From an uncultured Prevotellaceae bacterium (GTDB taxonomy: Bacteria > Bacteroidota > Bacteroidia > Bacteroidales > Muribaculaceae), in assembly GCA_900319525.1 (NCBI GenBank), contig ONOU01000039.1, forward strand, positions 1-37,721: 37,721 nt of DNA, in the 5' to 3' direction. The notes beneath the pieces were generated by a model. It saw only the letters and a program-made list of their open reading frames with translations, was not told the origin of the DNA and did not search any database. Below are positions 91 to 37,721 of the stretch, in pieces. The position numbers and the translations under genes are program-made. Every line of letters begins with the position of its first letter. Position 1 is the first letter of the stretch.

Positions 91-921
91 TCAGTTGCCG
101 GGATAAACAATTACCATGCGGCCACCACTGTACAGACCACCATCCTTGTCATTCAACATGAAGTTGAAGTCGTGGGTGTTGCCGTCGTCGGTAACAAAGC
201 AGTAGCTGCCATACTGGCTGGGCACATAGTAGATGTAGTAGCCCCAGTAGCTCACGTGGAAGCCCTCGGTGAAACTCATCTTGCCATCGGTCAGAGTGAA
301 CTCGAGGTAGTCATGATCGTTATCGGGATCGCCAGGGAAGAGAGCCTCCATGGGATCAAGGATGCGATAAACGTTGGAACGCTCACCTTGGATAACCTTA
401 ACACCCTTTGCCTCGGTGGGTGCAGGGAGACCAAACATAGCGCATGTAAAGTCATACAGGTCGCAAGTGCCGGCATCAATCCAGTTGAAGTCGCACATAA
501 CAGATACTGTAGATGTCGCTAACTGCTCACCAAACTCGGTGTTGGCAGTCTTGACATCGGCTTCTGAGAGGCTAACCTTTGCGGTATAAGTCTCACCCGG
601 CTCCATCTCATTGAACACAACAGTAGCATAGGCAATACCCTCGCCGTCGGCAAAGGTTACCTGATTGCTCTTGAGTGATACATTGGCAGGTGCATCGGTA
701 AGCGTAACATTGGCAGTGTAACTACCGTTCTTGATAGCACGCGATAGAGCCACGGGAATCTCAATGCTGGATGCCTTGGTCACAACAGTGCTCGGCTCAG
801 CGGTCATAAAGGAGATATTGGCTACAGTGGGCTCATAGATGGCACCGATATTGTCCTGATCGCAGCTGGTCAAGCTGGCGGCAACGACTGCCAATCCTAA
901 AATATATTTACCTAATTTCAT
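91..921 (-). CDS. Third lipoprotein of a Sus-like locus (SusE/F-like position)
   Basis: A 276-residue lipoprotein. The signal peptide ends in the lipobox LTSC at Cys20, followed by DQDN; acidic residues right after the lipid-bearing Cys are typical of surface-exported Bacteroidetes lipoproteins. Residues about 35-140 look like a beta-sandwich module (alternating strands, with phrases such as VTFADGEG). The C-terminal half is rich in Tyr, Trp and Gly, as in glycan-binding surface proteins. It lies 35 bp after the susD stop and is the last gene of the operon before the terminator at 12-51. Its place suggests a surface ligand-binding accessory protein, but I do not recognise the C-terminal domain. 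The frame extends to a TTG at 930; the ATG at 921 is preferred because it gives a normal Lys-containing signal peptide. Confidence 0.75.
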   Translation of the reverse strand: MKLGKYILGLAVVAASLTSCDQDNIGAIYEPTVANISFMTAEPSTVVTKASSIEIPVALSRAIKNGSYTANVTLTDAPANVSLKSNQVTFADGEGIAYATVVFNEMEPGETYTAKVSLSEADVKTANTEFGEQLATSTVSVMCDFNWIDAGTCDLYDFTCAMFGLPAPTEAKGVKVIQGERSNVYRILDPMEALFPGDPDNDHDYLEFTLTDGKMSFTEGFHVSYWGYYIYYVPSQYGSYCFVTDDGNTHDFNFMLNDKDGGLYSGGRMVIVYPGN

Positions 922-956
922 AATATTCAATTAGTTAATGAGATTAAACATCAATT

Positions 957-2504
957 TTACTCGGGATAGTCACCAACGGGGTTCTGATCCTTGTTAATGT
1001 CCATGTTCTCATTGCCGTCAAACTCGGCCTGAGGAATGGTCAGTACCCACAGGTAGCTGGCGGGATCCTTCATAGCTTTCTGGTGGGTAGGCAGCAGCAG
1101 ACCATCGGGCCAACCATACTCGCTGGGACGCACGAAGCCCTGGTGCAGACGACGGATAGTGTAGATACGGCCATCCTCGCCCCACAGCTCCAGACGACGC
1201 TGGATCAGGATCTCCTCGCGCAGCGAACCGGTCTCATCGGTAGTCAAATTACCCAGTGCGGTACCAGTCTTGTTGGTGCTGTAATTGGGATCACGCTTGC
1301 TCATCAAAGCCATCAGGTACTCCTTGGCCAGAGCGTCATTACCACTCATACAAGCGGCCTCGGCAGCATTGAGGTACATCTCCTCAACGCGCATCCAGAT
1401 GTAGTCGGCTTCCCAGGTCTGGGAGTTGGAGAACTCAAACTTCTTCTGCAGGTAGCCTTCGGCAGGATTCCACCAAGCACGACGTGCATCGGTGCTACGC
1501 ATCTTGCCATACAGCCAGCTTGAGATTTCCTTGGGAGCACGCTCGCCATAGGGGGCGGTGCCACTCATGTGGGTCATCAACGAAGCATACATACCAGCCT
1601 GATCGCTGACGATCTGAGCACCCCACATCACGTTACCCTGGCCAACAGAGTTGATGAAGTTAGCCTTGTTGGGAGCAAATGCGCTGGCATCAACAGTCTG
1701 AATGCTCTTGCCACTGGCGGCGATAGCCTTCTGGGCAGCGTCCAGGGCCTCACCCCACTTCTCCTCGACGAGGGCGATGCGGGACTTCAGACCCAGAGCC
1801 ACAGCATAGCTGATGTGGCTGGGATGACGCTGAGCAGGGCTCTTGGCCAGCAACTCAATAGCCTTGTTGATGTCATTGTCGATCTGCTCATACACCTGAG
1901 CCACGGTCGAGCGGGGCTGACCGGTGGTGGTGGTCATAGTGGGCTCATTGTAGATGGGCACACAAGGATCGTTGCTGAAGTTGTAGTTGCGTGCAAAGGT
2001 TTGTGCCAACATGAAGTAGCTGTAGGCACGGATGGCATAAGCCTGACCGATTACGTAGCCAACATCCTCGCTGGAGCCTTCCATGGTCTCCTCGGCAGCG
2101 ATGATATAGTTAGCGTTAGCAATCCAGGTGTAGTAGGCCATCCACAGGTCATAGCTGCGCCATGAGCTGCTGGTGAAACGGCCCTTTACATTATAGGCAG
2201 CGTCGAACCAGAACCAGCCTGAACCCTGGGCACCCATGATGAAGTCGTCACCCATGACCTCGCCCATCAGGTTATAGGCGCTGATACCGAAGCACTGGTG
2301 AGTGTTACTGGTGGTGGACCAGCCAGCAGTGTACATCGAGCGGTAGATACCGTTCAGGGGGATGAGGGCCTTGGTGGCGTCGCTCATGAAGGTTGAACCC
2401 GACATCTTGTCGGTGGGCTCGGTCTCCAGCAAGTCGCTAGAGCATGACGAGAGGCAGAGCACGCCAAACATCCCAATAAACAAATATTTAAATATCTTTT
2501 TCAT
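957..2504 (-). CDS. SusD/RagB-family nutrient-binding outer-membrane lipoprotein
   Basis: A 515-residue protein with a type II signal peptide (lipobox LSSC, Cys21, then SSDLLE). It continues with typical SusD features: LETEPTDKMSGSTF, an N-terminal ALIPLNGIYRSM helix, the TPR-like segment YVIGQAYAIRAYSYFMLAQTFAR at roughly 150-175 and the C-terminal RRLELWGEDGR motif around residue 440. SusD proteins sit on the cell surface as a lid on a SusC transporter and capture the ligand. The partner transporter is directly upstream (2637-6327), separated by a 132-bp spacer that holds a hairpin element. The 3' neighbour is another surface lipoprotein. No glycoside hydrolase is linked, so the substrate cannot be inferred. 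The length and ends are normal for the family. Confidence 0.95.
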   Translation of the reverse strand: MKKIFKYLFIGMFGVLCLSSCSSDLLETEPTDKMSGSTFMSDATKALIPLNGIYRSMYTAGWSTTSNTHQCFGISAYNLMGEVMGDDFIMGAQGSGWFWFDAAYNVKGRFTSSSWRSYDLWMAYYTWIANANYIIAAEETMEGSSEDVGYVIGQAYAIRAYSYFMLAQTFARNYNFSNDPCVPIYNEPTMTTTTGQPRSTVAQVYEQIDNDINKAIELLAKSPAQRHPSHISYAVALGLKSRIALVEEKWGEALDAAQKAIAASGKSIQTVDASAFAPNKANFINSVGQGNVMWGAQIVSDQAGMYASLMTHMSGTAPYGERAPKEISSWLYGKMRSTDARRAWWNPAEGYLQKKFEFSNSQTWEADYIWMRVEEMYLNAAEAACMSGNDALAKEYLMALMSKRDPNYSTNKTGTALGNLTTDETGSLREEILIQRRLELWGEDGRIYTIRRLHQGFVRPSEYGWPDGLLLPTHQKAMKDPASYLWVLTIPQAEFDGNENMDINKDQNPVGDYPE

Positions 2505-2636: not shown

Positions 2637-4436
2637 TTACTTCACAATGATTTCGCAAATGGAAACACGGTTCCAGCTCAATTCGTCAAACATGTTGCTG
2701 ATACCCTGGCCAGCGGCGTTGATGCGGTTGGCAGCGATACCATACTTCTTGACGAGCATATCCTTCACGCTGGCGGCACGGCCGTTAGCGAGCTTGATGT
2801 TCACCTCTTCCTTGCCCTCGGGCGAAGCATAACCCTTGATAACGCAGGTTGCCTCGGGATGGCTCTTCAGATAAGCAGCCACGCGCTCAACGTTGGCACG
2901 CTGGTCGGCAGTGATTGCGGTACCACTCTTGGGGAAGTGAACCAGGATGTTCATGTACTGCTTGCTGTTGTCAACCACCTTGGGAGCGGCATTCTTGGCA
3001 GCATTCAGGTCGTTGCGGCAGTTGGCCAGAGCGCGGTTAGCGGCGTCGAGGTCACCCTGCAGCTGAGCCAGACGGCTGTTGGCGTCGGCAGCGGCACCCT
3101 GAGCGTCAGCGAGCTGAGCGCGCAGGTCGTTGATCTGGCTGTTCAGAGCGTTCACGTTCACTGCGGGAGCAGGAGCGGCATATGCCTTACCAAAGTTCAG
3201 CTCGATACCTACGGTGTAGGTGCGGTTGGGGCTGTAGTCATAGTCAGTACCACCACTGAAGTTGTACTGGGGATCCATACCATCGAGGTGGGTGAAGAGA
3301 GCCAGGTTGTCGACCGAACCGAAGATACGGGCACCGGTCATACCCAGCTTGCTGATCCAGTTGTTGGGCAGAGCCCATGCCAAAGTGATGTTCTTGATAG
3401 CGAAGTAGCTAGCATCAATCAGGAAGCGGTCGTTGGCAGCAATCGACTCAGCGATGGTCGAGCGAGGAACGTCGGTCACGTCACCGGGCTTCTGCCAACG
3501 GCGCATAGCGTTCTTGTTCCAGGTCGAGCTCAGGTACGACAGGTTCATGTCGCTGGCATACAGGCTGTCATAAACCTTGCCACCCAGCGAATAGGTAGTC
3601 AGCACGCTCAGGGTCAGACCCTTCCAGCTGAAGTCAGTTCCCAGTGAACCAAAGATGTCAGCCTGACGGCTGCCCAGGTAGTACTTGCAGGTGTTAGCAA
3701 CCGAGTAGCTATCGGTGATATACTCAGTGCCAGGAACCATGTTGCCGTCGTCGTCCTTCTCATATGCCCAGTACAGTGAATGACCGTTCGAGGGGTCAAC
3801 ACCGGCACTCTTAGCCATATAATAGGTGTAGATGGGCATACCTTCCTTGATCACGCGAACACCGCTGATCAGCTCGGGAGCCTCCTTAGTCAGCTTGATG
3901 ACTTTGTTCTTGTTGTGGGTAGCCATTGCAGTGATGTTCCACTCAAAGTCGGCAGTGCGGACGGGGGTGATGCGCAGTGAAGCCTCAACACCACGGTTGC
4001 GCATGTCGCCCACGTTGTCCATGAAGCCGGTGAAACCGGTCGACAATGCCATGGGACGGTTAAGCAGCATGTTCTTGGTCAGACGGTTGTAGAAGTCAAC
4101 GTTCAACTGCAAGCGGTGGTTGAACAGGATAGCGTCGAAGCCAGCATTGAAGTTCTGGCTCTTCTCCCAAGATACGTTCTGGTTCTCGAGCGAAGAAATC
4201 AGTGCACCGATGTTGGTAGCGTTGCTGTAACTCAGGTCATACAGTGACTGCCAAGCATAGTAAGTGGGCAACATATCGTTACCCTTGGTCAACATATCGT
4301 TACCCTGCTCACCATAACTTGCCTTAACAGACAGGTTGTTGATCCAACCCACGTTCTGCATGAACTTCTCACCAGATACACGCCAGTTTGTGATCGGGGT
4401 GGAAACGCGAGGAAGCATCCTGACGCAGCGAAGCAC
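2637..4436 (-). CDS. SusC-type transporter, back part: barrel strands fused to coiled coil and OmpA-like domain
   Basis: A 599-residue frame whose first 18 or so residues are out-of-frame; genuine transporter sequence starts at WRVSGEKF. Barrel strands continue to the usual terminal strand RTYTVGIELNFGKAY. A normal SusC ends there, but this frame continues without a stop for another 180 codons (2640-3179). First comes an Ala/Pro linker (AAPAPAVNVN), then about 55 residues of heptad-patterned coiled coil (LNSQINDLRAQLADAQ). Last is an OmpA-like domain (2640-2957) with NILVHFPKSG, CVIKGYASPEGKEEVN, LANGRAASV and a final NRVSICEI. OmpA-like domains bind peptidoglycan in the periplasm, so the barrel would be tethered to the wall. 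The Arg of NGRA is kept; the usual Asp of GxTD is Ser (GYAS), which I recall as common in Bacteroidales OmpA proteins. Confidence 0.88.
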   Translation of the reverse strand: MLRCVRMLPRVSTPITNWRVSGEKFMQNVGWINNLSVKASYGEQGNDMLTKGNDMLPTYYAWQSLYDLSYSNATNIGALISSLENQNVSWEKSQNFNAGFDAILFNHRLQLNVDFYNRLTKNMLLNRPMALSTGFTGFMDNVGDMRNRGVEASLRITPVRTADFEWNITAMATHNKNKVIKLTKEAPELISGVRVIKEGMPIYTYYMAKSAGVDPSNGHSLYWAYEKDDDGNMVPGTEYITDSYSVANTCKYYLGSRQADIFGSLGTDFSWKGLTLSVLTTYSLGGKVYDSLYASDMNLSYLSSTWNKNAMRRWQKPGDVTDVPRSTIAESIAANDRFLIDASYFAIKNITLAWALPNNWISKLGMTGARIFGSVDNLALFTHLDGMDPQYNFSGGTDYDYSPNRTYTVGIELNFGKAYAAPAPAVNVNALNSQINDLRAQLADAQGAAADANSRLAQLQGDLDAANRALANCRNDLNAAKNAAPKVVDNSKQYMNILVHFPKSGTAITADQRANVERVAAYLKSHPEATCVIKGYASPEGKEEVNIKLANGRAASVKDMLVKKYGIAANRINAAGQGISNMFDELSWNRVSICEIIVK

Positions 4437-6327
4437 TCAGGAAGTAGCGGCCAGCGAAGTTATAGTTGGCACGACCGAACCATGAGTGGATGCGGTAATT
4501 GTCGGTATAAGAGTCAGCCTCGAGCAGTGTGGTTGCGGGACGCAACTCAAAGATGCCGTCAACCAGGTTGGTCTTGCCAGCCAGCAGGTAGCTGTACTGG
4601 TAAGCATACCACTCGTGACCCAGCAACAGGCCGATGGTGTGATCACCGAAGGAGCGGTCCCAAGTCAGCAACTGGTTGAAGGTGTAGCTCTGGGTGCGGC
4701 TATTGGTTTTCCGCAGCAGACCACCGGCGTTAGCCTGGTTACCGTGCTGCGAGTTCATGTAGCGCATGTAGTTGCGGTTCACATAGTCCATGCTGAAGTT
4801 CACAGCCAGCTTCAAGCCCTGACGCCAGCCGTACTTGGCCAGGTCGCTACCCAGCACCAGACCGGTGCGCAGGCCAGCAACGTCACGCTTGGTGTCGGCC
4901 TTATCGAGCATCAGCATACCCAGCGACGAGAAGTCGCTCAACGAACCGGGACGGGTACCGTTAGGAGTTGACTCACCCCAGTCATACTGGATGTTGCCAT
5001 CGCTGTCATATACGGTGTTACCGTTGATGTCCTTCAAGTAAACAGGCAGCAGCGGGTTGATGAACTGTGCGGTGTACCAGGGGTTAGAAGTGCTGGTACC
5101 GTCATAGTCGTTGAAGTTGCTTACCGAGTGGGCCAACGAAGCGTTGATGTTAGCACCCAACCAGTCAGTGATCTGGCTCGTGATGTTGGCACGGCCGGTG
5201 TAACGCTCATAGTTGGTGGTCTTCAGGATACCGTCCTCATTCAGGTAACCCAACGACATCATGTACTGTGCGTGCTCGCTACCGCCGGTCACCTGCAACT
5301 GGTGCTCATGACGGAAGGCGTTGTTGCGGATAACGCTGTCATACCAGTCCTCGTCCCAGGCGCTCTTGGCATCCTCGCGAACGTAACCAGTAGCGGGGTC
5401 AATCAACTGATCCCAGCTGTAATTTTTGAAGGGGTTGTACTGCTCGCCACCCAGCTGACCGCTCAGGCCAGCACGGGCGATGGCCTCGGCATCACTCCAG
5501 CTATTACCATTGTCAATAGCCTGGTTGCGCAGAGCCTCATACACGAGCTGAACATACTCCTTCTGGTCAACATGCTGGTAGCGCTTGGTGGCACGTGATG
5601 ACCAACCGAAGGTCGAACGCCACATGATGTTGCTGCGGCCCTCAACACCCTTCTTGGTGGTGATCATCACAACACCGTTGGCACCACGGGCACCATACAG
5701 AGCGGCAGCACTAGCGTCCTTCAAGACAGTCATCGACTCGATGTCCGAGGGAGCGATTGAACTCAGGTTGCCGTCAAAGGGTGCACCATCAACAACATAC
5801 AACGGGGTGCTGTAAGCGTTGATCGAACCGTAACCACGAATCTGGATATTGGGCGACGAACCGGGCTGGCCCGATGCGCTGGTCACCTGCAGACCGGCTA
5901 CGTTACCCTCGAGGGCCTTGGTAGCATCGGTCACGGGACGCAACTCCAGTTTCTTGTTGGTCACAGCCTCGGCTGAACCCGTGTAAGAGGTCTTCTTGGC
6001 AGTACCATAGGCAACTACCATCACCTCGTCCAGGTTTGTGGCACCATTGTCACTCAACGTGATGGCCATTGAAGGCTGAACAGGAAGTTCTTGGGTCTTG
6101 TAACCCACATACGAAACCTTGAGGGTCTTCACATTGTAGGGAAGATTGAGCGAGAACTCACCGTTAACGTCGGTGGCCGCGCCGTTTCCTCCGCCAATGG
6201 GCTGTACCGTTGCACCAATCAGCGGTTCGCCGTTGGGATCGGTAACTTGTCCCCTCACTACTTGTTGGGCACTCATGCCCAGTGAGATAGCACAGATGGC
6301 TATCAGCAGCAGAAATAGCTTCTTCAT
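4369..6327 (-). CDS. SusC-type transporter, front part: signal peptide, CarboxypepD_reg-like domain, plug, first barrel strands
   Basis: A 652-residue frame. It has a signal peptide (MKKLFLLLIAICAISLGMSA) and an N-terminal carboxypeptidase-regulatory-like beta-sandwich at about 24-95, with GQVTDPNGEPLIGATV and VSYVGYKTQE. The TonB-box-like segment is LDEVMVVAYGT. The plug domain at about 105-225 includes ALEGNVAGLQV, PNIQIRGYGSIN, PLYVVDGAPF, SMTVLKDASAAALYGARGA and NGVVMITTKKG. Barrel strands follow up to the break. This is the canonical SusC/RagA layout for energy-coupled outer-membrane import. The last 6 residues before the stop (KLACIW) are out-of-frame reading past the deletion. Confidence 0.9.
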   Translation of the reverse strand: MKKLFLLLIAICAISLGMSAQQVVRGQVTDPNGEPLIGATVQPIGGGNGAATDVNGEFSLNLPYNVKTLKVSYVGYKTQELPVQPSMAITLSDNGATNLDEVMVVAYGTAKKTSYTGSAEAVTNKKLELRPVTDATKALEGNVAGLQVTSASGQPGSSPNIQIRGYGSINAYSTPLYVVDGAPFDGNLSSIAPSDIESMTVLKDASAAALYGARGANGVVMITTKKGVEGRSNIMWRSTFGWSSRATKRYQHVDQKEYVQLVYEALRNQAIDNGNSWSDAEAIARAGLSGQLGGEQYNPFKNYSWDQLIDPATGYVREDAKSAWDEDWYDSVIRNNAFRHEHQLQVTGGSEHAQYMMSLGYLNEDGILKTTNYERYTGRANITSQITDWLGANINASLAHSVSNFNDYDGTSTSNPWYTAQFINPLLPVYLKDINGNTVYDSDGNIQYDWGESTPNGTRPGSLSDFSSLGMLMLDKADTKRDVAGLRTGLVLGSDLAKYGWRQGLKLAVNFSMDYVNRNYMRYMNSQHGNQANAGGLLRKTNSRTQSYTFNQLLTWDRSFGDHTIGLLLGHEWYAYQYSYLLAGKTNLVDGIFELRPATTLLEADSYTDNYRIHSWFGRANYNFAGRYFLSASLRQDASSRFHPDHKLACIW

Positions 6328-18395: not shown

Positions 18396-19919
18396 TCATG
18401 ATGATGGGTGCATCATCGTGAGCATCTGCTCGATGATGGTGCGGTTGTTGTTCAGGCGGGGAATCTTGCGCTGGCCGCCCAGCTTGCCTGTCGAGGCCAG
18501 CCAGCGGTCGAACAGGCCGGGCGAAGCAATGACCAGTTCGGGACCGTCAAGGAAGATATCGCCCGTGCGCTTGGCATCGTAGTCGCTGTTGACCTCACGC
18601 AGGTGCTGGTCAAGCAGTTGCATGAAGCGGTCGATGTCCTGAGGCTCATGTGCAAACTCGATGAGCCACTGGTGATAGCCACGCTTGCCACCCTGGGCAT
18701 AGACAGGGGCAGCAGTGTAGTTGAGCACCTCGGCGCCTGTCTGCTGGGCTGCCAGTGTGATGGCATGGTCGGCGTTGTGCACCATCAGTTCCTCGCCAAA
18801 GGCATTGATGAAGCTGTGTGTGCGGCCCGCAATCTTGATCTTGACGGGGTTAAGCTGCTCGATGGTCACCGTGTCGCCCAGGCGGTAGCGCCACAGGCCG
18901 TTGGCAGCGGTGATGATGAGCTCATAGGTCTTTCCCTGCTCGATCTCCCAGATGGGATAGACCTCGGGCGTCTCGCTGTCGATGTCCTCGATGGGCAGGA
19001 ACTCGTAGAACACACCCACGTCGAGCAAGAGCAGCATGGCCTCTGTTGACCAGTCGCTCTGCACGGCAAAGAAGCCCTCGCTGGCATTGTAGGTGTCCAG
19101 AAAGTGCATCTTGTCCATGTCGCAGATTTCTTCATACTGCTGCCTATAGGGACCGAAGGCGATACCGCCATGGAAAAACACCTCCAGATTGGGCCACACC
19201 TCATGGATGGAACTCTTGCCGGTGCGTTCCAGCACCTGCCTCAGCACGGTCAGGAACCATGAGGGCACACCGCTCAGGTTGGTCACGTTGGCGCCAATGC
19301 TGGCCTCGACCAGTCGCGGCAGTTTCTCGCTCCAGTCCTCCATGAGCGCCACCTGCTTGCCGGGGATGCGCATCAGGTTGGCCAGGGGATTCATGTTCTC
19401 GATGAGGTTGGCGCTCAAGTCCCCTACCCTCACGCCAGGCTTGAGCTGCAGGTTGTTGGCAAAGCTGCCGCCCAGGATGAACGCTTTGCCCGCAAAAATG
19501 CGGCTCGACGGGTTCAGGTTCAGGTAATGCGACACCACATCGCTGGCACCCAGGTAGTGATTCCACTGGAACGACTCACGCGTGATGGGGATGTACTTGC
19601 TGCGGCCGCCGGTCGTGCCCGACGATTGGGCAAAGTTGTAGCACCGTCCTGGCCATAGCTCGTCCTTGGAGCCATTGACCATGCGCATGATCTGGGGGCG
19701 CAAGTCCTCGTAGCTGTAGAGCGGCAACGTGGAGGCAAACTGCTTGTAGGTCCTGATGGTTGAGAAATCGTACTTGCGGCCAATGCGCGTGAGCGCAGCT
19801 TTCTCGACAAGCCGCACCAGCTCGCCCTGCTGCACAGCGTCGGCATGGTCGATGTAGCGCGCGTGCTGCTGCAAGCGGTCAATGAAACGGCTACGGACAA
19901 ATGGCGTGAAATTGATCAT
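18396..19919 (-). CDS. GH3-family (auxin-responsive-promoter-like) adenylating enzyme
   Basis: A 507-residue member of the ANL adenylate-forming superfamily, GH3 branch. Key motifs are the P-loop-like QSSGTTGGRSKYIPIT (SSGTTGG at 99-105), TYNASEGFF, NGLWRYRLGDTV and AGRTHSFINAFGEEL. Plant GH3 enzymes join acyl acids to amino acids through an acyl-adenylate; bacterial homologues are common in Bacteroidetes but have no settled substrate. It is the first gene of a two-gene operon with an LtaS-like membrane enzyme, so an envelope or lipid modification is a reasonable guess only. The ATG at 19919 is preferred to the in-frame TTG at 19928, which lies within the TAATTTTG promoter box. Confidence 0.9.
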   Translation of the reverse strand: MINFTPFVRSRFIDRLQQHARYIDHADAVQQGELVRLVEKAALTRIGRKYDFSTIRTYKQFASTLPLYSYEDLRPQIMRMVNGSKDELWPGRCYNFAQSSGTTGGRSKYIPITRESFQWNHYLGASDVVSHYLNLNPSSRIFAGKAFILGGSFANNLQLKPGVRVGDLSANLIENMNPLANLMRIPGKQVALMEDWSEKLPRLVEASIGANVTNLSGVPSWFLTVLRQVLERTGKSSIHEVWPNLEVFFHGGIAFGPYRQQYEEICDMDKMHFLDTYNASEGFFAVQSDWSTEAMLLLLDVGVFYEFLPIEDIDSETPEVYPIWEIEQGKTYELIITAANGLWRYRLGDTVTIEQLNPVKIKIAGRTHSFINAFGEELMVHNADHAITLAAQQTGAEVLNYTAAPVYAQGGKRGYHQWLIEFAHEPQDIDRFMQLLDQHLREVNSDYDAKRTGDIFLDGPELVIASPGLFDRWLASTGKLGGQRKIPRLNNNRTIIEQMLTMMHPSS

Positions 19920-19925
19920 AATGCG

Positions 19926-19933
19926 CAAAATTA
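19926..19933 (-). promoter_or_regulatory. -7 box abutting the GH3 gene start
   Basis: Minus-strand TAATTTTG (plus CAAAATTA) is 6 nt from the ATG at 19919, with a weak ATTG 17 nt further upstream. As for the TPR regulator, this predicts a leaderless or nearly leaderless transcript. The rest of the gap up to 20118 shows no gene. Confidence 0.5.
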
Positions 19934-35706: not shown

Positions 35707-37593
35707 TTATCTGGAAGTAGGCATATCACCGGGATAGCAGAACCACATGATGGAGCACTGGTAGTCAAGTTCTTGACCGCCAATGGGCAGCAGGGCATCG
35801 AGGTTGCCCTTGTTCCACATATACTCGGAGTTGTAACGCGGGCGCAGGCGGAAGCAAGGCGAACCGTTGTTGTCGGTGTTGAAGGCGCTCTTGCGGCCCT
35901 GTACCTGTGCGGGCTGCAGCCAGAATCCCTTGTAAACCTTGCTGGGATCGGTATCCAGCTTCTGATCAAGGGTTGTCTTGTCCCAGCCGTTGAGGTACTT
36001 GGGATAGTCGCCGGTGTACTGGATGTCATAGAAGTACTTGCGCAGGTCAACCCAGGCCTCGATGGCGCCCCAAGGATAGAGGGCCAGATACTTCTGCATC
36101 ATGATGTGCGACAGCGAGAAATCGCTCTGTGACAGGCCTGCCACGTAGGGACCGTTCAGGTATTCCTGAGCCAAGGCGTTGAAGGTAGCCTTGGTCACAC
36201 GGTCGCCCTGACGGTAGTTGCCGTTCAAGGTACCGGCAACGATATAGCTGGCAGTGAAGTCCATATCGGCCTGCATGGCCTTCTTCCAGGTTTCAAATGC
36301 GTCGCTCTTGCTGCCAAACTTGAACTGTACCTCGGCCAAGTCGAACAGCAGCTCGGCATAGGTGGCCATGATGTACGGGCAGTCGTCGCGATAGATCCAG
36401 TGGCCAGAGCCGTCATAGGTGGAGTTGGACACGGCATTGCGGCCCCAGAACGAGGGAGCGGTGCCGATGGGACCGGTAGCGCCGGTGAAGCCCGAGCCCA
36501 CATAGTACAGGCTGCGCAGTACCTCGCGGTCGCTGATGGTGGCATAGTTGCTGCTGTCGGTCGTGGCCAGCTTCACGAGGCGGCGCGGGTCAAAGTGACC
36601 TGCATCGGGCAGGGTGTCGCTGGTGATCTGCTTGTCGAGCAGCTGGTAAGGATAGTGTTGGCGATTGAGCTCAAGGGTGTCCTCGGTCTGGATGTAGTTA
36701 CCCTGCTCGTCATACTTGCGGATGGTACCCGTGAACAGCTGCACGGCATAGTCATGCTGGAAGTAGCTGTAGCTCAGGTTGCCACGGTAGGGGCCCCAGA
36801 AGTTGTTGTAGCCGCTCTCGGCCGCGTCGGCACCACCACCGGCAACCTTCAGGGTGGCGTTGTCATCGTTGCTGGCAAAGGCCTTGCTCACAGCCTCAAG
36901 GAACTCATTGTAGTACTTCTCCTTGAAGTCACGCTTGTTGGTCAACGAGGCCAGGTTGCGGGCAATCACTGCATAGCAGAACTTCACCCACTTGTCCTTG
37001 TCGCCACCGTAGATGTAGTCGTTGTTCTTGATGCGGTTGCCATAGGCCGAGTTGTCTTCCATCTGCAGGTACTCGATAGCCTTGTAGGCCCACTCGCGCA
37101 CCTGGGGATAGATGTCATACTGGTAGTCATACTGATGGTCGAGACGACCTGCCTCATAGGCTTGCTTCATGGGCGCCTCACCATTCACCTTGGTGAGCAG
37201 GTCCCATGAGAATGCCTTCATGGCCATGCCGATGCCGGCCAGCGTCCAGTTCTCGGCCTCAACACTCTGGTTGATCATGTTCTCCAGGTTCATACCCTGG
37301 TTCCAGTAAACCATGCGCCATGCTTCACCACCGGCATCGCTGGCCTTGGTGTAGTAGTGGTTGGCAAAGTTGGTGTAACTCGAGGTACCCATCATCTGGG
37401 TGAGCGGAGCAATGGCACGCAAGTCCCAGTAGATGCCCTGATAGGCCTGCTGGATACCTGCCAGGTAGAGGTAACCCTCCACATAGTCAGGGGCGTCGGT
37501 GTTCTTGTTCACATCCAGGTAGTCGTCACAGGATGTCAATCCCAACGTCACGCAAGCCAGCGCACACAGTATAATTGATTTGAATGATTTCAT
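35707..37593 (-). CDS. SusD-like outer-membrane lipoprotein, SusD_2-type
   Basis: A 628-residue protein with a lipoprotein signal (LTSC, Cys22, then DDYLDVNKNTDAPDYV, the standard SusD opening). Typical segments are YLYLAGIQQAYQGIYWDLRA, WRMVYWNQGMNLENMINQS, IGMAMKAFSWDLLTKVNGEAP, KWVKFCYAVIARNLASLTN, YIMATYAELLFDLAEVQFK and LALYPWGAIEAWVDLRKY. The order fits the SusD_2 group rather than the classical SusD of the first locus. It is longer than usual (about 500-550), with an extended C-terminus. The transporter partner should lie to the right of the window. The same hairpin element as in the first locus precedes it. Confidence 0.93.
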   Translation of the reverse strand: MKSFKSIILCALACVTLGLTSCDDYLDVNKNTDAPDYVEGYLYLAGIQQAYQGIYWDLRAIAPLTQMMGTSSYTNFANHYYTKASDAGGEAWRMVYWNQGMNLENMINQSVEAENWTLAGIGMAMKAFSWDLLTKVNGEAPMKQAYEAGRLDHQYDYQYDIYPQVREWAYKAIEYLQMEDNSAYGNRIKNNDYIYGGDKDKWVKFCYAVIARNLASLTNKRDFKEKYYNEFLEAVSKAFASNDDNATLKVAGGGADAAESGYNNFWGPYRGNLSYSYFQHDYAVQLFTGTIRKYDEQGNYIQTEDTLELNRQHYPYQLLDKQITSDTLPDAGHFDPRRLVKLATTDSSNYATISDREVLRSLYYVGSGFTGATGPIGTAPSFWGRNAVSNSTYDGSGHWIYRDDCPYIMATYAELLFDLAEVQFKFGSKSDAFETWKKAMQADMDFTASYIVAGTLNGNYRQGDRVTKATFNALAQEYLNGPYVAGLSQSDFSLSHIMMQKYLALYPWGAIEAWVDLRKYFYDIQYTGDYPKYLNGWDKTTLDQKLDTDPSKVYKGFWLQPAQVQGRKSAFNTDNNGSPCFRLRPRYNSEYMWNKGNLDALLPIGGQELDYQCSIMWFCYPGDMPTSR

Positions 37594-37600
37594 ATCTTTT

Positions 37601-37708
37601 TTAAGTTTTTAGTTGTTAGTTGTTAGTTTTAAGTATGGTTTGTATCGCCTGTAACTGTATCGTCATTTGGTAATATTACTTACAACTTAAAACTTACAAC
37701 TTAAAACT
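37601..37708 (-). repeat. Hairpin element upstream of the second susD (copy B)
   Basis: Arms at 37601-37635 and 37677-37708, made of AAGTTTTTAG/TTAGTTTTAAGTA and TACTTACAACTTAAAACT. The loop contains TGTATCGCCTG and GGTAATATTAC and aligns with copy A (2521-2628) at about 80% identity. It lies 7 bp before the susD_2 start and probably follows a susC gene outside the window. Confidence 0.65.
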
Positions 37709-37721
37709 CAGTTTAACCTTA

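Follow-up and report, generated by a model that had tools for sequence, protein, structure and literature searches.

A periplasmic OmpA-type arm behind four SusC barrels of one Bacteroidales lineage: candidate wall-tethered TonB-dependent transporters

The window, the whole stretch of 37,721 nucleotides analysed here, carries close to one end a SusC/SusD gene pair in which the SusC frame continues past the end of the barrel (Table 1). Across positions 2640-3179 of the minus strand it runs from SusC through a linker and a heptad coil into an OmpA domain with no intervening stop. This is the reading of the earlier note, and frame 2637-4436 (-) is indeed unbroken from the barrel through VGIELNFGKAY into the tail. 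The coil, estimated there at about 55 residues, has 56, and its a and d positions are 94% Ala, Ile, Leu, Met, Val or Phe versus 25% elsewhere, a bias that none of 2000 shuffles matched. Behind it Pfam recognizes the OmpA-like domain that the note had placed there (residues 501-581 of frame 2637-4436, 9.7e-13, 48.7 bits versus a cut-off of 27.2), with 5u1h (9.3e-11) and 3td3 as PDB relatives. The N-terminal half of the SusC, which is of the type called A below, matches the Pfam families Plug (1.8e-20) and CarbopepD_reg_2 (1.5e-17). A counterpart of the window's lipoprotein-like gene lies behind the A-type SusC/SusD pair of locus L116 (14692-15489), and in the same locus a gene of the metallo-beta-lactamase fold with a lipoprotein-like start (4925-5710) adjoins a D-type SusCD pair. 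At the opposite contig end (34789-37721) the SusD-like_2 gene and a lipoprotein-like gene stand in the gene order of the B-type fused operon of L115. The window also encodes a GH3-family protein (18396-19928; PF03321, 3.9e-44), a family known chiefly from plants.

Table 1. Coordinates of the fused SusC gene, its parts and its neighbors in the window
Feature	Positions	Strand	Remarks
SusC N-terminal half, A type	4369..6327	-	signal peptide, CarbopepD_reg_2, plug, first barrel strands; premature frame end after deletion
29-bp gap versus six relatives	4388..4389	-	SusC frame broken; placement uncertain by a few bases
SusC C-terminal barrel half	3180..4388	-	terminal barrel Phe immediately precedes tail (...VGIELNFGKAY)
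Ala/Pro linker AAPAPAV	3159..3179	-	
Heptad coiled coil, 56 residues	2991..3158	-	
OmpA-like domain PF00691	2640..2957	-	stop codon 2637-2639
SusD partner lipoprotein	957..2504	-	PF14322 1.5e-20, PF07980 8.2e-14
Lipoprotein-like protein, next after SusD	91..930	-	Pfam scan without family match
SusD-like_2 gene, opposite contig end	35707..37593	-	PF12771 3.1e-23

The assignment of the barrel to the SusC type agrees with what was found for an intact A-type relative, L033, which matches TIGR04056 at 4.6e-239 over residues 1-1014 and whose predicted model has the RagAB peptide transporter (6sln, probability 1.00) as best fold match; a D-type copy, L029, matches TIGR04056 at 3.3e-240. The full-length model is weak (pLDDT 57.7, with the coil and parts of the OmpA domain below 50) and was therefore used only for the order of strands and helices and for the SusC fold. 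A helix is predicted at the coil (residues 1027-1079), with low confidence there.

A tblastn search of genome contigs with the tail gave 202 candidate stretches, including 117 relatives, and the best 80, representing 79 loci in 36 accession groups, were kept. Within these best 80 of 117 relatives, all 79 loci are labeled Bacteroidales or one of three families within that order. The frame that contains the tail match reaches 1000 aa or more in 73 of the 80 cases and 750 aa or more in 76; 66 frames, closed on either side, measure 1210-1320 aa stop to stop, while three of the four frames below 750 aa run off contig ends and one is closed (L052, 402 aa). The 36 accession groups behind the best 80 of 117 comprise 7 titled goat, sheep, roe deer or water buffalo, 21 RUG isolates, which we take to be rumen genomes, and 8 without a host. 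The fused SusCs belong to one group of gut bacteria, largely ruminant. Of the 101 genomes in the genus, 38 have the tail at E 2.9e-63 or better, all with a frame above 1000 aa except G027, which showed a 417 aa frame only; the next-best tail match in the genus, at 2.1e-50, is a 418 aa OmpA, and two genomes were without a match. Had related genomes carried the OmpA part only as a separate gene, the fusion proposed in the earlier note would have been refuted, yet this is the situation of the sister species (8 of 8 tested) and not of these 38 genomes. Outside the genus we found no fusion among the matches listed for 397 genomes of the family (genus included), none in an order sample of 295 genomes and none among the matches listed for a phylum sample of 392 genomes, with at most 6-8 candidates scored per genome and with these tails as the only queries, so that unrelated SusC-OmpA fusions would escape.

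A PF00691 search of 16 genomes of the genus separates fused from unfused species: eight fused genomes carry 3-4 OmpA domains in frames above 1000 aa, and eight unfused ones have none in such frames (longest 831). All eight genomes of the fused clade that were tested also encode a separate OmpA of about 420 aa. The tail is thus an addition, and replacement of a lost OmpA is ruled out. Nor is it a general requirement of importers, since none of the 11 other SusCs read in the window's genome has it (L122 among them is interrupted by a stop); a further hit lies on contig C14, and an OmpA search of that genome found no SusC-length frame besides the fused ones.

The copy in the window is itself damaged. 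Its SusC consists of two overlapping frames, 4369-6327 and 2637-4436, because 29 bp are missing relative to all six relatives aligned. The earlier note, correct about the fusion, was silent on this break, which precedes the joint between barrel and tail by about 1.2 kb. L033 (isolate RUG548) is 97.7% identical to the window over 6.4 kb and its frame is unbroken; identity is high on either side of the gap, which may be an assembly fault or a recent mutation. The window's genome has three fused SusCs, namely the A copy in the window, a D copy of 1341 aa (C51) and a C copy cut by a contig end, and all three are incomplete as assembled. The D copy (L029, G000:C51) lacks 53 bp at the tail end (2191-2204) relative to L100. 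This gap and the window contig end at the same TAA, a coincidence suggestive of assembly trouble at repeated tails. In L100 the TAA follows the tail, and in the window it stands immediately before the SusD-like_2 gene; a fourth fused SusC, of B type, probably lies beyond window position 37721. Closed frames below whole-SusC size in L052 (402 aa and 851 aa) and L089 (763 aa), as well as a TGA in G071:C68, indicate that breaks like that of the window recur.

When identical cores are dropped, the best 80 of 117 relatives yield 73 fused proteins that reach 900 aa or more, the window's genome contributing two. They divide into four types: A (21, the type of the window), C (19), D (18) and B (15). 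In this set, again from the best 80 of 117 relatives, mean identity between types is 24-36% for barrels and 64-79% for tails, and within types 78-93% for barrels and 85-91% for tails. All 73 rows (best 80 of 117 relatives) extend 123-185 aa beyond the barrel end, where extensions of 123 and 157 aa are cut by contig ends and those of 167 and 178 aa have altered ends. Thirty unfused rows were compared with them: 15, including the stop-interrupted L122, do not go past the barrel-end column, and 15 end within the last strand, finishing in Phe (13), Leu (1) or Ile (1). For the unfused members read here, it therefore holds that SusCs normally stop at the barrel. SusD partners adjoin the fused SusCs, for A in the window and for B, C and D in G016. 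Every type has at least one unfused orthologue within the genus that stops at the barrel, and unfused orthologues occur in arrays of two or three resembling the fused ones (G009, G072, G076, G077 and G021).

In a barrel tree with unfused SusCs of the same genome and unfused A orthologues, well-supported branches force four label changes, and an enlarged tree (28 fused and 30 unfused rows) again forces four; both were made by a quick method and carry a long-branch warning for distant paralogues, of which the close orthologue groups are independent. The sister group of fused A consists of unfused orthologues from the genus, and an unfused orthologue of a different genus branches outside both. 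Unfused orthologues surround fused D and fused B, in the case of B with a support of only 93, and fused C has one unfused sister, so that gain or loss both fit. In a tail tree with 12 OmpA outgroups, 32 tails form one clade (100/99), which is sister to five OmpAs of fused-clade genomes (99/95), and the other seven OmpAs lie outside; compared with the OmpA that the window's genome encodes, the tails average 58-59% identity. A single tail clade next to the lineage's OmpA, taken together with unfused orthologues of each type, means that one OmpA-derived tail reached four SusCs, the gain being clearest for A and D. The simplest history consistent with these trees would be that the lineage's own OmpA arm was joined to one SusC and then copied among neighboring SusC genes.

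Several further observations touch on how the tail spread. Fused B, C and D (L058, L088 and L096) have in common the intergenic stretch after the SusC stop and the start of the SusD signal peptide, so recombination probably moved more than the tail; the intergenic stretch also resembles that of an unfused C, and part of this likeness may be older than the spread. The tails cluster mostly by type. The tail of L060, a D-type copy, falls outside the other D tails and is 81% identical to that of the window, which likely reflects a later swap. Ongoing gene conversion between tails within a genome was not clearly supported (excess 0.68 points, equaled or exceeded in 61 of 1000 permutations). An intergenic element that is rich in AT and contains AAGTTTTAAG / CTTAAAACTT units facing either way is found at 2510-2639 and 37500-37721 of the window and at G000:C51:36040-36203; it has 89 matches in the genome, stands directly downstream of A and D tails and is a possible recombination substrate.

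Two other accounts of the architecture have to be weighed. In the window's genome, contigs break off at tail repeats and two of the fused genes lack internal stretches, which is what one would expect if assembly had erroneously joined SusC to OmpA. However, fused frames of at least 900 aa occur in 35 of the 36 accession groups (best 80 of 117 relatives) and the joint sits 1.2 kb away from the deletion in the window. A join error between barrel and tail, which the earlier note had considered as a possible objection, is thus refuted, and we regard an artefact as practically negligible; the case for the fusion is carried by the 66 closed fused frames in other assemblies (best 80 of 117 relatives). 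The tail could also descend from a single old fusion and have been lost from many SusC paralogues, instead of having been gained several times. The common clade of the tails would fit such a history, as would the lone unfused orthologue of C, which agrees with either direction. Against it, within a type the barrels evolve about as fast as the tails, yet between types the barrels have diverged far more than the tails; unfused orthologues are sister to, or surround, every fused group, and where the A barrel has close homologues in a different genus of the family or in other families, these too end at the barrel. We therefore consider an old fusion with many losses very unlikely and retain the spread of one tail onto four SusCs.

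What the tail might do can be approached through its conserved residues. The motif LSX2RAX2VX3L is conserved in OmpA_C-like wall-binding domains (PMC5053529). Among the best 80 of 117 relatives, 71 of 71 tails of testable length have L[AS]xxRAxxVxxxL, and 0 of 71 the strict LS form. In characterized OmpA domains an Asp and an Arg contact diaminopimelate. At the canonical Asp position, located by alignment to 3td3, all 73 tails have Ser, the Arg is kept in 72 of 72, and the residue two past the Ser is an acid throughout, Glu in 60 and Asp in 13 of 73 (best 80 of 117 relatives); the 12 OmpAs compared all have Ser at this position as well. The conserved acid two residues on may or may not substitute for the missing Asp, and with Ser in its place the wall would either be bound in another way or be bound weakly. 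Codon comparisons within types (pairs with dS 0.1-1.5) give a median dN/dS of 0.15-0.22 for the tail versus 0.11-0.22 for the barrels, which points to purifying selection on the tail at a level like that of the barrels. By part, the values are 0.12-0.17 for the OmpA domain and 0.16-0.28 for the coil, the former being lower in all four types, and the C-terminal residues of the tail (MFDELSWNRVSICEI.VK) are nearly invariant.

We propose that these SusCD importers double as envelope tethers through an OmpA-type arm with predicted wall binding. In the proposed mechanism, a SusC/RagA importer with its SusD would have gained the periplasmic arm of its own lineage's OmpA directly behind the barrel end, consisting of a flexible linker, a coil and an OmpA domain. 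A helix of 56 residues at 1.5 Angstrom per residue would be about 8 nm long, enough to reach wallward, and the arm would cross the periplasm and grip peptidoglycan non-covalently, as in OmpA. Four SusCD systems might in this way be held in place while TonB pulls the plug. The architecture itself, its occurrence within a single clade behind four barrels of distant kinship and the purifying selection on the tail are observed; that the tail binds the wall, spans the distance and acts mechanically is what we infer from them.

Because Ser in place of Asp could mean another or a weak mode of wall binding, tethering is in our judgment the probable function, though far from a settled one, and two alternatives keep some weight. 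The tail could be a device for oligomerization or clustering, in which the coil bundles SusCs mutually or with OmpA and the wall is hardly bound, if at all. The near-perfect heptad and the replaced Asp would suit this idea, and the OmpA of one Bacteroidales species has been described as a heterotrimer (PMC5300881). Nevertheless, in all four types it is the OmpA domain and not the coil that is under the tighter constraint, and its last stretch hardly varies, so that clustering as the main function seems to us rather unlikely; oligomers driven by the coil, mutual or with OmpA, would also be possible with a tether. The tail could further be a neutral or selfish module that was spread by recombination among neighboring SusCs and does little. 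Tails much more alike than their barrels, an intergenic stretch and SusD start that B, C and D have in common, the hint of a later swap in L060 and the existence of broken or short frames are all in line with this. Yet selection on the tail equals that on the barrels, 73 of the 80 matches belong to frames that reach 1000 aa or more (best 80 of 117 relatives) and the tail is kept in 38 genomes of the genus, and a tail of little function is accordingly improbable. We thus favor the tether. For the complete picture of wall-tethered TonB-dependent transporters, with the lineage's OmpA arm copied onto four SusC barrels and import and tethering combined in one protein, we would assume about an even chance.

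The elements of this architecture are familiar from other systems. With SusC/RagA (TIGR04056; RagAB, 6sln) the fused proteins have the N-terminal extension, plug, barrel and SusD partner in common, but the fused ones add the coil and the OmpA domain behind the barrel, where the unfused members read here stop. Coil and OmpA domain are likewise found in the roughly 420 aa OmpA of the lineage, whose arm forms the sister clade of the tails; that protein, however, has the small OmpA barrel, which is absent from the fused protein, where the barrel is that of a TonB-dependent importer and matches SusC/RagA. The coil of the fusions is longer than that of the aligned lineage OmpA. OmpM of diderm Firmicutes, described as both nutrient channel and outer-membrane tether through a coiled-coil stalk, is a precedent for a wall-binding stalk on a nutrient channel, but it is portrayed as a diffusion porin that forms trimers and carries its SLH domain at the N-terminus (PMC10628300). 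In place of a 16-strand porin barrel the fusions have the plug and barrel of TonB-dependent importers, with a C-terminal OmpA domain, and Pfam scans found no SLH domain in them. In PorE and Pal, too, an OmpA-type domain joins the outer membrane to the wall, although the cited accounts describe both as lipoproteins without an importer barrel (PMC12204202, PMC5053529). PorE is a proposed tether in Bacteroidetes, and one survey detected no pal genes in Bacteroidota (PMC12204202). A classification of 34,893 TonB-dependent transporters was based on their N-terminal architecture (PMC6434023). We found no description of a SusC-OmpA fusion in the open-access PMC literature, and within that scope the note's remark that no such system has been described is borne out. 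A barrel with a wall-binding arm is therefore already known from OmpA and OmpM; on a TonB-dependent importer none was found described in the open-access literature.

TonB-dependent importers get pulled from the inner membrane. The fusions bear on how such importers stay put under this pull and on how Bacteroidota secure their outer membrane to the wall. The coil-plus-OmpA arm behaves as a portable domain that can be appended past the end of a large barrel. Within one genus, some species have a wall-type arm on importers whose orthologues in other species, in similar gene arrays, are without it, which amounts to a natural experiment. Such pairs of fused and unfused orthologues allow a direct test of what tethering does to import, mobility and envelope strength.
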